64,000 nucleotides of DNA. It comes from Candidatus Poribacteria bacterium (GTDB lineage: Bacteria > Poribacteria > WGA-4E > GCA-2687025). This document shows, piece after piece, positions 8,351 to 16,425 of the stretch (position 1 is the stretch's first letter; each line of letters starts with the position of its first letter). Under the pieces are notes generated by a model, which saw nothing but the letters and a program-made list of their open reading frames with translations, ran no database searches and was not told the DNA's origin. Location: positions 359,893 through 423,892 of the forward strand of contig JABGQA010000058.1 in the NCBI GenBank assembly GCA_018644665.1, written 5' to 3'. A program made the position numbers and the translations under genes.

Positions 8351-9979
8351 TCACTCGCCTACGGATATGTACCGGCGAGTTGCGACGTCCTTGAGCACGG
8401 TCGTGACGCCGGAAGGCCACCGCACGGAGACAGCCGGTCGGGACCCCGAATTGCCCAGACCGAACAGCAGACGCCCATCACTGGCGGACGCGTATCCGAC
8501 CGCCGTGGTGACCTCGCGCGTCTGCGTGACTTCCGCCGTGACCGTCACACGCGCTCCGACGCCCGCCCGGTTGGCTCCCTGCCCCACGAGCACGACGCCC
8601 AGCCAGTCGCGCTCGGCGCCGCCGTCGTTTCGCAGCAGCGTCGGCGCCTCTCCCGTGTTGACGACGAGTATGTCGGTGTCGCCGTCGTTGTCGTAGTCTC
8701 CGAACGCGGCCCCACGGCTCGATAGGTTCGCGTCAAGCCCCGATTCGCGCCCACGTTCCGCAAACGCGCCAGTGCCATCGTTCACGTATAGCAGGTTGGG
8801 CTGAGCGTAGGCGCTTGTGCTGTCTCGGCCCGCCACGTTGAGGAGGAGGTGCCCGTTCGCGACGAACAGGTCGAGGTCGGCGTCGTTATCGACGTCCAGG
8901 AACGCAGTTCCCCATCCCACCAACGGATACGTGAGCAGCGCCGTACCCGCCGTGTGCGAAACGTCCGAGAAGAGGCCGTCACCCTCGTTCCTGTAGAGGC
9001 TGTTCACCTGGTCCTGGTAGTTCGTGACGACCAGGTCGAGACGGCCATCGTTGTCGTAGTCTCCAAAGGCCGCCCCCATGCCGCCTTCCGGCTCACCGTA
9101 TTCGCTGAATCCGACCCCTGCCCAAAACGTCGCGTCGTCGAACGTGCCGTCGCCGGTGTTCCGGTAGAGGAAGTTGCGCGTGTCGTCGTTCGCCACGTAG
9201 ATGTCCGGGTCGCCATCGTCATCGTAGTCGCCCACGGCGACGCCCAGGCCCTTGCCCTCTTCGGTGTACACGCCCGCTTCGCGCGTGACATCCGCGAACG
9301 TGCCATCGCCGTTGTTGCGGTAGAGGACGTCGGCGGCGCCGGCGTAGTCCCCGGGGCCGCAGTCGGTCCCGAGGCGGCCGCCGCAAGGCGTGTAATCCTC
9401 AATGCGGAAGGCGACGTAGTTGGCGACGTACAGGTCCAGATGGCCGTCGCCGTTGTAGTCCAGGAAGGCGCTCGACGAACTCCACGCTCTGCCGTCCACG
9501 CCCGCGGCGGCGGCGACATCCGTGAACGTGCCATCGCCGTCGTTCCGGTACAGGGCGTTCCGCTCGAAGTTCGTGACGTATAGGTCGGTGTCGCCGTCAC
9601 CATCATAGTCGGCAGTGGCGCATCCCACGCCATAGCCCGTGTCGCCGACGCCCGCGAGCGCGGTGACGTCCGTGAACGTGCCGTCGCCGTTGTTGCGATA
9701 GAGTGCGTTCGCTGATTCGTTCGGAGCGGACGGTGGTAGGGCGTGGCCGTTCACCAGGTAGATGTCGAGGAGCCCGTCGCCGTCGTAGTCCAAGAAGCCG
9801 CATCCTGACGCGACGGTTTCCAGGATGTATCCCTTGCCGCTACGCCCGATGTCGTGGATGAAGTCGATCCCGGCCTGCGCGGTGACGTCGGTGAAACGCG
9901 CCGAGGCCGCGCAGGCGCAAACGTGGAGCAGCGCGAGCATCACGGACGAGGCCCCAACAACCCAATGGCGCCGAGACAT
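8351..9979 (-). CDS. CRTAC1-like FG-GAP/ASPIC-UnbV repeat protein
   Basis: A 542-residue exported protein. After an N-terminal signal segment (GASSVMLALLHVCACAASA) it has about seven FG-GAP/VCBS-type repeats, each with a calcium-loop pattern D-x-D-x-D-G next to LYRN-NGDGTFTDV. The last 80 or so residues form an ASPIC/UnbV domain (DWLGVVLVG, RAGVGARV, FGLG, VRWPSG). This architecture makes an integrin-like beta-propeller outside the cytoplasm, but the biological role is not established. The ATG at 9979 overlaps the stop of the upstream TPR gene as TGATG. An in-frame GTG sits one codon earlier. The overlap suggests translational coupling with the TPR protein. Confidence 0.9.
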   Translation of the reverse strand: MSRRHWVVGASSVMLALLHVCACAASARFTDVTAQAGIDFIHDIGRSGKGYILETVASGCGFLDYDGDGLLDIYLVNGHALPPSAPNESANALYRNNGDGTFTDVTALAGVGDTGYGVGCATADYDGDGDTDLYVTNFERNALYRNDGDGTFTDVAAAAGVDGRAWSSSSAFLDYNGDGHLDLYVANYVAFRIEDYTPCGGRLGTDCGPGDYAGAADVLYRNNGDGTFADVTREAGVYTEEGKGLGVAVGDYDDDGDPDIYVANDDTRNFLYRNTGDGTFDDATFWAGVGFSEYGEPEGGMGAAFGDYDNDGRLDLVVTNYQDQVNSLYRNEGDGLFSDVSHTAGTALLTYPLVGWGTAFLDVDNDADLDLFVANGHLLLNVAGRDSTSAYAQPNLLYVNDGTGAFAERGRESGLDANLSSRGAAFGDYDNDGDTDILVVNTGEAPTLLRNDGGAERDWLGVVLVGQGANRAGVGARVTVTAEVTQTREVTTAVGYASASDGRLLFGLGNSGSRPAVSVRWPSGVTTVLKDVATRRYISVGE

Positions 9980-11409
9980 CACGGGCCGCCGCCTTGCGTG
10001 ATCGCCCGCAGGGCGTCTCGCCTGGCGCGGTACCCGGGGTTGTCCGGCGCGGCGTCCAGCGCGCGCGCGACGGCAGCCAGCGCCTCCGCCGGTCGTCCCT
10101 GCGCTTCATAGACGTGGGAGAGGGTGTCGAGATACACCGGCTTCGGCTCGATGCCCACCGCGCGTTCCGCCAAGTTCGCCGCCTCGTCGAGCCGCGTCTC
10201 GTTCTTGTAGAAGAGCCATGCCAGGTTGTTGTACCCGCCTGGCCGCTCGGGGTCGAGTTCGATCGCCCGTCGGTATGCCGCAACCGCCTCGTCTACGGCG
10301 CCGACCGCGCCTGCCGCCATACCGAGGTACAGGCACGCCATCACGTTGTCAGGCCGGGCTGCCGTCAGATGTCCCGCCCACACGTACGCATCGTCCCATT
10401 CCTTGAGCGACAGGTGGATGCGCACACGGGCGTCCAGCGCGGGGGCGAACGTCGGGTCGACGGCGAGCATCCTGTCGAGTTCGCGTATCGCGTCGGGCAT
10501 GCGCTCTGCGCGCAGGTACACCTTGGTCATGGCGTAGCGCGCGGGGAGGTCCGTGGGATCGGCCTCCAGCGTGCGCAGATGGGGCTTCAGCTTCTCGTCC
10601 AGTTCGTGGAGAGCCGTAAACTCCGCGGTCGCTTCTGCCGCAGGATCGCGGTCGCCGTTCGCGGCGTACGCCTTGGCCAGGCTGTGCCACGCCGATTTGT
10701 GCCCCGGGTCGAGCGCCACCGTGCGGCGTAGGGCGACGACTGCCGCGGCGTATTCGTGCTGCCGCAAGCGCGCGACGCCGACGCCGTGATGCACTGCCAC
10801 GACTGTGGGATCCAGGGAGAGAGCAGCGCCGTAGGATGTGATCGCCGCGTCCAGGTCGCCCTCCCACGCGTGGATCTCGCCGAGACTGCGATGCGCGGGC
10901 GCAGTCGACGGATCGAGAGCCAGCGCCATGCTGTAGGCGTCTCGCGCCTCGGGGAACATCCGCTGGGTGGCGAACGTCAGACCTAGTCCGAGGTACGCCT
11001 CGACGTAATCCGGCCGCAGGGCGATGGCGGTGCGGTAGTGAGACTCGGCCTCGCGGAACGCGCGGCGCCTGAGAAGGATGTCGCCGAGTTCGTCGTGCGC
11101 CTCGGGAAAGCCCGGGCGCTTCGTCAGCGCGTCCTCCAGCGCGTCCTCGGCGCGGTCGAGCCAACCAAGGGCGGCGCAGACGATGCCGACACCGAAGTCC
11201 GGCATCGGCGAATCGGCGTCAGCGTCCGCCGCGCCGTGGAACGCCATCAGCGCCTCGGCCATGCGCCCGCTTTCGTAGAGCGCGAGACCCCGCTCCATCG
11301 GCGAGGACGGGTCGCTCGCGGCGAATTGCGAGCGGGGGGGCACGCCAACGCCGACCCACATGGCCAACGCGGCCGTCAGCGCGACTACGCGTCCTCTCCT
11401 CATCCCCAT
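9979..11409 (-). CDS. Tetratricopeptide-repeat protein, membrane-anchored or exported
   Basis: A 476-residue TPR protein. A hydrophobic segment (VVALTAALAMWVGVG) near the N terminus acts as signal or anchor. The rest is a string of about ten TPR units with the W/L-G-Y-A-F-A-P pattern, for example YNNLAWLFYKNETRLDEAANLAERAVGIEP. Such proteins scaffold complexes. The tight TGATG overlap with the downstream FG-GAP/ASPIC gene suggests the two products are made together, a pairing common in Planctomycetes and related groups. The open frame extends to 11502, but the ATG at 11409 puts the hydrophobic segment at the N terminus. Another ATG at 11403 is equally possible. Confidence 0.85.
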   Translation of the reverse strand: MGMRRGRVVALTAALAMWVGVGVPPRSQFAASDPSSPMERGLALYESGRMAEALMAFHGAADADADSPMPDFGVGIVCAALGWLDRAEDALEDALTKRPGFPEAHDELGDILLRRRAFREAESHYRTAIALRPDYVEAYLGLGLTFATQRMFPEARDAYSMALALDPSTAPAHRSLGEIHAWEGDLDAAITSYGAALSLDPTVVAVHHGVGVARLRQHEYAAAVVALRRTVALDPGHKSAWHSLAKAYAANGDRDPAAEATAEFTALHELDEKLKPHLRTLEADPTDLPARYAMTKVYLRAERMPDAIRELDRMLAVDPTFAPALDARVRIHLSLKEWDDAYVWAGHLTAARPDNVMACLYLGMAAGAVGAVDEAVAAYRRAIELDPERPGGYNNLAWLFYKNETRLDEAANLAERAVGIEPKPVYLDTLSHVYEAQGRPAEALAAVARALDAAPDNPGYRARRDALRAITQGGGP

Positions 11410-11530
11410 CGTCCCGGCGCCCGATCCGCATGTCGCCGAGGGGCGCGTAGCCGGACAGCGACCGTACATAGTGGAGGCCGCGTCCGGCGAGTCCGTCTCC
11501 ACTCGCCATCACGCGGCCCCAGACGTGTCG

Positions 11531-14818: not shown

Positions 14819-16123
14819 ATGGGCATGGCTCGACCAAGACGGAAAGCTCTTGCGATCGCGTGCGGGATACTGACGACCGTGAGCGTGCTCGGCGGGGCTC
14901 AGTTCTCGGCGTTGCAGACGGACTTGGAGGATCTCGAAGTCGGCGGCGGATGGCTGTACGGCGATCTCGACGCGGGCGTCGCGCAGGCCAAGGAAAGCGG
15001 GCAGCCGCTGTTCGTGCTTTTTCGGTGAGTGCCGTGACAGGCCTGCAAAGGCTTTGACGGGCAGGTTGTCCGTCAGGATTCCGAGATGCAAGAGCTGCTG
15101 GATCGGTTCGTCAAGGTGCGGATCGTGCACATGGCCGATGTCGATCTCGCACAGTTCCAGTTCGACTACGATCTCACGTGGTCGGCCTTCCTCATGAACG
15201 CGGACGGCACGATCTACGGCCGGTTCGGCACACGTTCCATCGCCGGGCCGATGGCGCACATCTCCGTGCAAGCGCTCAAGAACGCCATGACCCGCGCGTT
15301 GGACCTGCACGCGGACTATCCCGGCAATCGCGCGCAGTTCGTGGACAAGCGAGGAGCCGAGCCCAGGTGGAAACGGGCGTTGGACATACCCGCGCTCAGC
15401 AGGCGGATGGGCGACAGACCTGCGGAACAGAACCAGCGCAAGGGCTGCATCCACTGCCACCACATCTACGACGGGTGGAACGACACGGCCTACGACGAGG
15501 ACGCATTCTACCAAGACACCATGTGGAAGTACCCGCTGCCTGAGAGCGTAGGCATGACGATAGATGTCGACTCGGGCAACGTCGTCGAGAGTGTGGCGGA
15601 GGGGTCGTTCGCGGAGCGTGCGGACATCCATGCTGGTGATGTCGTGCGGTCGATGAACGGTCAGCCAATCATCTCGCAGGCGGACATGCAGTGGGTGCTA
15701 CATCACACGGCGCCGGAGTCGGAAGTCGAGGTCGTCGTTGGGCGCGACGGGGCGCCGGTGACTAGCACGCTCGCCGTAAGCGGGGAGTGGAAGCGGTCCA
15801 ACATCATCTGGCGCGCCTCGTTCCCCAGCATACGTCCACACTTGTGGGTGCGCGCGCCTGAGCTGTCCGTCGAGGAGAAGTCGGAACTCGGGCTGGGGGT
15901 CGACGACCTCGCGCTCAAGGTCACCACGATCTGGGCAGGCGCCGCCCGCCGGGCAGGCCTCATGATCGACGACATCATCGTCGACGCCGGCGGTCGTACC
16001 ACGCGGATGGACAACGGCGAGTTCCACATCTGGCTGAAGCTGGTCTACAAGGACGGCGACAGTCTGCCTACGATAGTGCTGCGGGATGGTGAGAGGATCC
16101 CGCTGCTGATACCGATCATGTAG
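14819..16123 (+). CDS. Trx7/PDZ-type selenoprotein with two in-frame UGA codons and a haem c motif
   Basis: A single 434-residue gene read through two TGA codons. Codons 1-69 and 74-434 share one frame, broken only by TGA at 15026-15028 (residue 70) and TGA at 15035-15037 (residue 73). The product reads U-V-P-U-Q-A-C-K-G-F, a U-x-x-U-x-x-C redox motif after a signal segment and PLFVLFR. The family name Trx7/PDZ domain-containing (seleno)protein is recalled from memory. Further along are C-I-H-C-H at 210-214, a c-type haem or metal motif, and two PDZ domains (about 250-330 and 350-430). The protein is probably periplasmic. An ATG at 14825 with GGGAG seven bases upstream is an alternative start. 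Frameshift and pseudogene readings are disfavoured because both sides are well conserved and only TGA interrupts them. Confidence 0.85.
15036..15070 (+). promoter_or_regulatory. Putative bacterial SECIS hairpin
   Basis: A 10-base-pair stem (with two G-U pairs and bulged A39) begins inside the second UGA: bases 15036-15046 pair with 15061-15070. The 14-base apical region can form a small AAA/UUU mini-stem with a GGC loop. The position just 3' of the UGAs and a G in the loop fit the general bacterial SECIS rule. Pairing by eye only. Confidence 0.5.
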
Positions 16124-16152: not shown

Positions 16153-16425
16153 ATGACGTGGATGATAGTCGTGCTGCTCGCCGTGGCGGCGTTCGTGTCT
16201 TTAGGGGGCTTTGCCATCTACGCGGCCGTCTATCTGCCTATCTCCAGGTCGATGGCGAAGCCTGGCCGCGGCGCCTCCGTAGCGGGGGATGTGGCCGATC
16301 TGCGGGATCGCCTCGCTCGGGTTGAGGAGGCCGTCGAGGAGATGCGCGAGGCGGTCGCAGAAGCGGTCCTTCAGACGCATGAGCGTGACGCGTTGGGCTC
16401 GGGGCGACGTGACCCCGATGCTTGA
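16153..16425 (+). CDS. Small membrane protein with coiled coil
   Basis: A 90-residue protein. Residues 3-32 form one transmembrane helix (MIVVLLAVAAFVSLGGFAIYAAVYLP). Residues 46-72 form a coiled coil (DVADLRDRLARVEEAVEEMREAVAEAV). The C terminus is charged. The family is not recognised, but small proteins with this plan often act as partners or regulators of membrane complexes. It begins 29 bases after the selenoprotein gene on the same strand and could be co-transcribed with it. It ends 2 bases before the convergent HNH-like gene. Confidence 0.6.
   Translation: MTWMIVVLLAVAAFVSLGGFAIYAAVYLPISRSMAKPGRGASVAGDVADLRDRLARVEEAVEEMREAVAEAVLQTHERDALGSGRRDPDA

Follow-up and report, generated by a model that had tools for sequence, protein, structure and literature searches.

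A Trx7/PDZ protein gene of Poribacteria with two in-frame UGA codons, a predicted U-x-x-U redox motif and a haem c attachment motif

Within a 64,000-nucleotide stretch of DNA from a Candidatus Poribacteria bacterium (the window), part of a 7.47-Mb draft genome of 175 contigs, we find a gene whose two in-frame UGA codons are, judging from the sequences of the gene and its relatives, very likely both read as selenocysteine (Sec). This reading draws on the conserved Cys positions with which the codons align, on a covarying hairpin, on the genes for the Sec machinery and on a family model whose cut-off the protein passes. The explanation that we consider best, and reasonably probable, is that one SECIS-like hairpin directs Sec insertion at both codons and that the product is an exported protein with a thioredoxin fold, two PDZ domains and a c-type haem, acting as a thiol/disulfide oxidoreductase of the envelope. 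A bolder version, in which one SECIS recodes two UGAs nine bases apart in an exported diselenide-haem electron relay with client-binding PDZ domains, which would be widespread among both Poribacteria and Planctomycetota and have escaped notice through gene calls that begin 3' of the second UGA, is put forward tentatively, and as a whole we would sooner doubt than assert it. The features on which the argument turns are collected in Table 1.

Table 1. Features of the predicted selenoprotein gene, in window positions; residues are numbered from 14819, the first ATG of the frame.
Feature	Position	Strand	Evidence or remark
Trx7/PDZ selenoprotein gene (predicted)	14825..16123	+	TAG stop; 432 codons when both UGAs are translated
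Signal-peptide-like N-terminus, basic then hydrophobic	14825..14905, borders approximate	+	by eye; low-confidence segment of the structure model
Thioredoxin-fold domain (Thioredoxin_7, residues 46-118)	14954..15172	+	Pfam
UGA1, predicted Sec70	15026..15028	+	Cys or Sec in 127/127 distinct genes; TGA in 57/66 Sec genes
UGA2, predicted Sec73	15035..15037	+	Cys or Sec in 127/127 distinct genes; TGA in 66/66 Sec genes
Third motif residue, Cys76	15044..15046	+	Cys in 122/127 distinct genes
SECIS-like hairpin: 8-bp stem, GGU loop 15064-15066	15056..15074	+	fold, covariation, absent in Cys genes
His164, candidate second haem ligand	15308..15310	+	His in 146/146 aligned relatives
C-I-H-C-H, haem c attachment motif	15446..15460	+	conserved CxxCH
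PDZ domain 1 (residues 249-319)	15563..15775	+	PDZ_2, 56.1 bits (Pfam)
PDZ-like domain 2 (residues 339-434)	15833..16120	+	

The two TGA codons are the sole stops inside the frame 14819-16123, and their reading as Sec gives R-U-V-P-U-Q-A-C, the U-x-x-U-x-x-C centre that the initial annotation had proposed. The gene end given there is retained, while its start at 14819 gives way to the ATG at 14825 as the more likely one, since the nearest relative (L063, Candidatus Poribacteria ARS61, identical in 374 of 434 residues) lacks an ATG at 14819 and retains the second ATG behind a GGGAG-like site. Relative to this sequence, changes at the three codon positions number 8, 5 and 19 before the UGAs and 28, 23 and 114 after them, with position 3 dominant on both sides; by this comparison the frame is under selection both 5' and 3' of the UGAs. 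The database entry for the gene comprises only the 345-aa ORF that follows the UGAs from ATG 15086, with the thioredoxin half cut off, which exposes a fault of annotation. It could be taken to mean that the UGAs are real stops in a split or decaying gene of which only the PDZ part is made, and 33 of 121 listed sequences, 252 to 369 aa long and without R-C-x-x-C, likewise look as if they started after the motif. We regard such decay as very improbable, because the same UGA pair recurs in 57 distinct genes whose frame is otherwise open, because the excess of position-3 changes is already present before UGA1, because a covarying hairpin follows the codons, and because all of the 30 Planctomycetota loci that were read stay open as far as CxxCH. 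Directly 3' of the gene lies a 90-aa ORF (16153-16425, plus strand) with one hydrophobic stretch recognized by eye and no Pfam match.

The combination of a thioredoxin domain with two PDZ domains, also claimed initially, is borne out by Pfam matches to Thioredoxin_7, PDZ_2 and two stretches of PDZ_6, and by structural matches of the predicted model, in which two PDZ-like domains are found, the thioredoxin part resembles a DsbD-like domain and the C-terminal half resembles the PDZ domains of HtrA-like proteins. The family is already known and named as a (seleno)protein: the NCBIfam model NF041199, Trx7/PDZ domain-containing (seleno)protein, matches residues 45-430 with 422.3 bits at a cut-off of 300, and the UxxU form described here is a two-Sec variant of it. 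With this family the window protein shares the Trx_7 and PDZ domains and the Sec at the second motif position. In the accessible text of a 2026 inventory, NF041199 is given as CxxU with one Sec (PMC13188914), and a PDZ domain-containing protein with Thioredoxin_7 is likewise listed as CxxU (PMC9312934); a CxxU protein under the name "putative secreted serine protease MucD" (PMC2398784) and a CxxC/U domain fused to PDZ, with further conserved Cys of no clear function (PMC9402790), are described elsewhere. From the shared names, motif and references in the accessible passages we read NF041199 and the MucD-named protein of PMC2398784 as one family. The window protein, and most of the Sec genes found here, differ from the family as printed in these passages in being UxxU, and also in carrying a CxxCH motif where the same passages mention further conserved Cys and no CxxCH. 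A UxxU form of the NF041199 family was not found in the accessible parts of the literature searched, PMC12013277 included. PDZ domains are common to the window protein and the HtrA/DegP/DegQ/MucD serine proteases, but no trypsin-like protease as in HtrA/DegP is present among its Pfam matches up to E 1, and a thioredoxin domain and CxxCH are found instead. The model of its thioredoxin part matches 3f9u ("exported cytochrome C biogenesis-related protein"), which we take to be a DsbD C-terminal-like domain, with 13% identity over the match, and to this the window protein adds Sec, the haem motif and the PDZ domains.

In relatives, the positions of both UGAs are taken by the Cys pair of a C-x-x-C motif. 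Among 80 named loci the motif is readable in 78 (L073 and L125 were dropped for having no motif), and 60 of these 78 show the C-x-x-C-x-x-C that the initial annotation had expected of Cys homologues. A 300-nt stretch running onward from the motif defines 127 distinct genes, the window included, and every one has Cys or Sec at both positions: 57 are UxxU, 9 CxxU, 61 CxxC and none UxxC, numbers in which 28 of the 66 distinct Sec genes came from a hairpin model whose source genes were mostly UxxU and which is biased towards that form. The protein-based set alone contains 38 Sec genes, namely 32 UxxU, 6 CxxU and no UxxC; UGA1 without UGA2 occurs in none of the 66 Sec genes, 38 of which were found by protein. 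Among the Sec genes read, the predicted two-Sec form is the commoner one. Two Sec residues beside a haem c motif were called unusual at the outset; inside the family the two-Sec form is common and no one-off. A family recorded with one Sec thereby gains many predicted two-Sec members, as read in the 57 distinct genes.

The family exceeds the cut-off in 25 of 84 genomes of its own phylum, and the source genome has four copies, with the motifs UVPU (the window), UIIU (contig C15, L056), CVPU (C12, L055) and CVPC (C78, L026/L059). Own-phylum copies together with the named loci yield 96 distinct 63-nt stretches, of which 35 are Sec (29 UxxU and 6 CxxU) and 61 are CxxC. Using the hairpin model on 392 Planctomycetota genomes, 58 matches in 50 genomes were obtained, and the 30 that were read comprise 27 UxxU and 3 CxxU, a UxxU share biased by the preference of the model for this form; all 30 have CxxCH and an open frame, and 28 represent new Sec genes. 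Records titled Verrucomicrobia likewise include CxxU forms. Both Poribacteria and Planctomycetota retain the UGA pair, in separate parts of the tree, and a quick tree of 71 rows built without the motif columns calls for 4 undirected changes between Sec and Cys and 8 among the three states, with fewer than these forced by the starred branches alone. Some copies deviate from the common pattern. L053 and L055 make up a divergent branch of CxxU copies that lack the third Cys (U-I-N-G) and whose haem motif reads C-T/V-E-C-H, with CxxCH retained. In L044 (G006), of the Cys form, a single in-frame TGA lies away from the motif, and L038 (G060), a UxxU copy, contains an internal TAA; both are taken as broken copies or errors. 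Pairs of hairpin matches about 1.4 kb apart in two Planctomycetota genomes (G368:C198:380/1783 and G203:C242:15344/16802) have the appearance of tandem gene copies.

The hairpin downstream of the codons has the sequence GACGGGCA-GGU-UGUCCGUC, and its GGU loop is separated by 26 nt from UGA2 and by 35 nt from UGA1. The SECIS of E. coli fdhF likewise has a short stem with a GGU loop 3' of the UGA, but serves a single UGA that is nearer to the loop than those found here. The 23-nt core of the window hairpin folds at -13.1 kcal/mol, a value as low as which was reached by 0 of 200 shuffles. Across the 34 distinct rows that represent 35 Sec genes, pairing extends to 96.7% of the stem cells, with a covariation of 0.260 as against 0.144 in shuffled alignments (reached by 0 of 500 shuffles) and with 18 cells changed on both sides as against 5.5 in shuffles, while slid versions of the stem pair in 16-57%. 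Since related sequences can exceed shuffles by kinship, the Cys genes provide the better control, and in 61 of them the same stem is 24.8% paired, with no excess over shuffles. RNAalifold, supplied with no structure, recovers this hairpin alone and finds no second hairpin for UGA1. The 28 new Sec genes have 219 of 224 stem cells paired, with five pair types at one position, and this adds less, as these genes were found with the hairpin model and their pairing is not independent. Folding of the hairpin region gives one outlier among the 61 Cys genes, at -7.8, and one among the 28 new Sec genes, at only -7.4. The hairpin that the initial annotation had placed starting inside the second UGA is a different one and is not supported: a stem at 15040-15053, just 3' of UGA2, is predicted by folding and is not kept in relatives, with 72.9% of cells paired and a covariation matched by 51 of 500 shuffles. 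In the source genome the hairpin model R1 matches the three UGA copies (C169, C15 and C12) and, weakly, the Cys copy C78 (31 bits); no convincing further user of the hairpin was found among the 150 of 4578 first-look candidates that were scored, and the window has no Rfam match that reaches the gathering score. A constraint imposed by the hairpin would explain the D-x-Q-V-V/A-R that follows the motif in most Sec forms and varies in Cys forms.

The machinery required for Sec insertion, which the initial annotation suggested looking for, is present in the source genome: selA adjoins selB on contig C144, the same contig carries a tRNA-Sec with anticodon TCA (UCA), and selD was found with an in-frame UGA near its N-terminus, a site that in this enzyme is usually occupied by Sec or Cys. 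All 24 Poribacteria genomes with the motif UGA have selB above cut-off, but across the phylum 75 of 84 genomes have it too, so that co-occurrence with selB discriminates weakly. Genomes of other phyla carrying Sec forms have it in 5 of 6 tested cases, the one without a selB match being G087, for which completeness is not given. The 64-kb window itself holds no tRNAs. As TGA terminates 7 of the 16 window ORFs inspected, UGA acts here as an ordinary stop and the code is not reassigned.

That one SECIS serves two UGAs is likely from these alignments, and the way in which the work is divided between the codons is suggested by the CxxU genes, in which this hairpin recurs at an unchanged distance from UGA2; the hairpin was thus not added for UGA1. 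It would then belong to UGA2, with UGA1 as an additional codon close to the outer limit of the permitted spacing. The model of bacterial SECIS elements in the accessible text of PMC13188914 asks for a loop of 3-9 nt with G within the first two positions, a stem of 4-16 bp, a UGA-loop spacing of 16-37 nt and an MFE of at most -7.5 kcal/mol, and the hairpin agrees with these rules for both UGAs. At two spacings from one SECIS, one of the UGAs is expected to be favoured. In an extreme case only UGA2 would be decoded efficiently as Sec, whereas UGA1, 9 nt further from the hairpin, would mostly terminate translation and act as a selenium-sensing valve, with little full-length protein made. The constancy of UGA2 (66/66 Sec genes) beside the optional UGA1 (57/66) is consistent with such a valve, as is the distance of UGA1, which at 35 nt comes near the upper limit of 37 nt (PMC13188914, accessible text). 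We consider the valve rather improbable, because a pair kept in separate tree parts of Poribacteria and Planctomycetota, and always on a Cys position, suits catalytic Sec better than a leaky stop, and because the reading frame is under selection before as well as after the UGAs. Translation of both codons as Sec therefore stays the preferred reading, and the family offers a natural test of the reach of a bacterial SECIS, the hairpin having one shared position in CxxU and UxxU genes and being missing from CxxC genes.

The haem c motif noted initially is kept in relatives: CxxCH is present in all of 121 listed proteins, the query included, and in all of 59 loci that run at least 200 residues past the motif and were not selected for CxxCH. 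Counts of CxxCH from the 78 motif-readable loci are left out, being biased by the use of C-x-H-C-H in reading their motif and, in part, of C-[IV]-H-C-H in finding them. The source genome has two Cytochrom_C_asm genes above cut-off, about 5.5 kb apart. It is likely, on this conserved pattern, that the protein carries a c-type haem, for which His164 may be the second ligand. The haem region (residues 139-250), when its model was folded alone, had no PDB match at E 0.001. The His of C-x-H-C-H and His164 could equally suit a metal site, and one may suppose that U-x-x-U-x-x-C serves as a site for a soft metal, be it copper, mercury or a cluster, and performs no disulfide chemistry, with C-x-H-C-H and His164 forming a metal site in place of haem. 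Three close Se/S ligands would be fitting for this, given a third Cys in 122 of 127 genes and the middle His (His212) in 144 of 146 aligned rows, and the accessible text of PMC13188914 considers metal coordination by Sec in other families. In the two remaining copies, however, the middle His is replaced by Glu with CxxCH intact, as a haem c motif allows, and a thioredoxin fold with the pair at its usual place, together with the cytochrome c assembly genes, also speaks against metal binding, which we judge unlikely.

As a role for the protein with its predicted haem and two Sec residues, we propose, from its domains alone, that it most likely acts in the envelope as a diselenol/disulfide oxidoreductase that has haem as a partner and binds clients through PDZ. 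SelB acting on the one hairpin would decode UGA1 and UGA2 in turn, the chain would be exported, and haem would be attached at CIHCH by the cytochrome c assembly proteins of the genome. Sec70 and Sec73, at the start of the first thioredoxin helix, may cycle between diselenol and diselenide, with Cys76, one turn on, as a possible third thiol. The PDZ pair may bind the tails of client proteins in the manner of HtrA, though no protease domain accompanies it here; the selenols would reduce or reshuffle disulfides or oxidised thiols of these clients, and the haem could pass single electrons to or from the Sec pair or a partner. Redox activity of the Sec pair is suggested by its place in the thioredoxin fold and by SelL, which shares the UxxU motif and is said to have a diselenide bond (PMC2397514, accessible text). 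SelL and the prokaryotic Prx-like UxxU proteins are peroxiredoxin-like, whereas no AhpC/TSA domain is present in the window protein among Pfam matches up to E 1. We know of no haem motif or PDZ domain in those proteins. Selenols suit peroxide chemistry, and the protein might accordingly be a peroxide or organic hydroperoxide reductase, in which the Sec pair takes the oxygen of the substrate, the conserved haem motif holds a haem that supplies electrons from the respiratory chain, and the PDZ domains only anchor. With neither a peroxiredoxin nor a glutathione peroxidase domain among the Pfam matches up to E 1, we give this alternative little credence and keep to the oxidoreductase of client disulfides. 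Should the haem prove genuine, one exported protein would combine diselenide chemistry with the transfer of single electrons.

The gene neighbourhood was compared all-against-all for 614 ORFs from 78 loci and the window, and no neighbour is conserved in more than 8 of the 79 stretches, so that no partner or pathway stands behind the role. Elsewhere in the window, at 8351-11502 on the minus strand, an FG-GAP/ASPIC-UnbV ORF overlaps a TPR ORF by 4 bases in an apparent operon.
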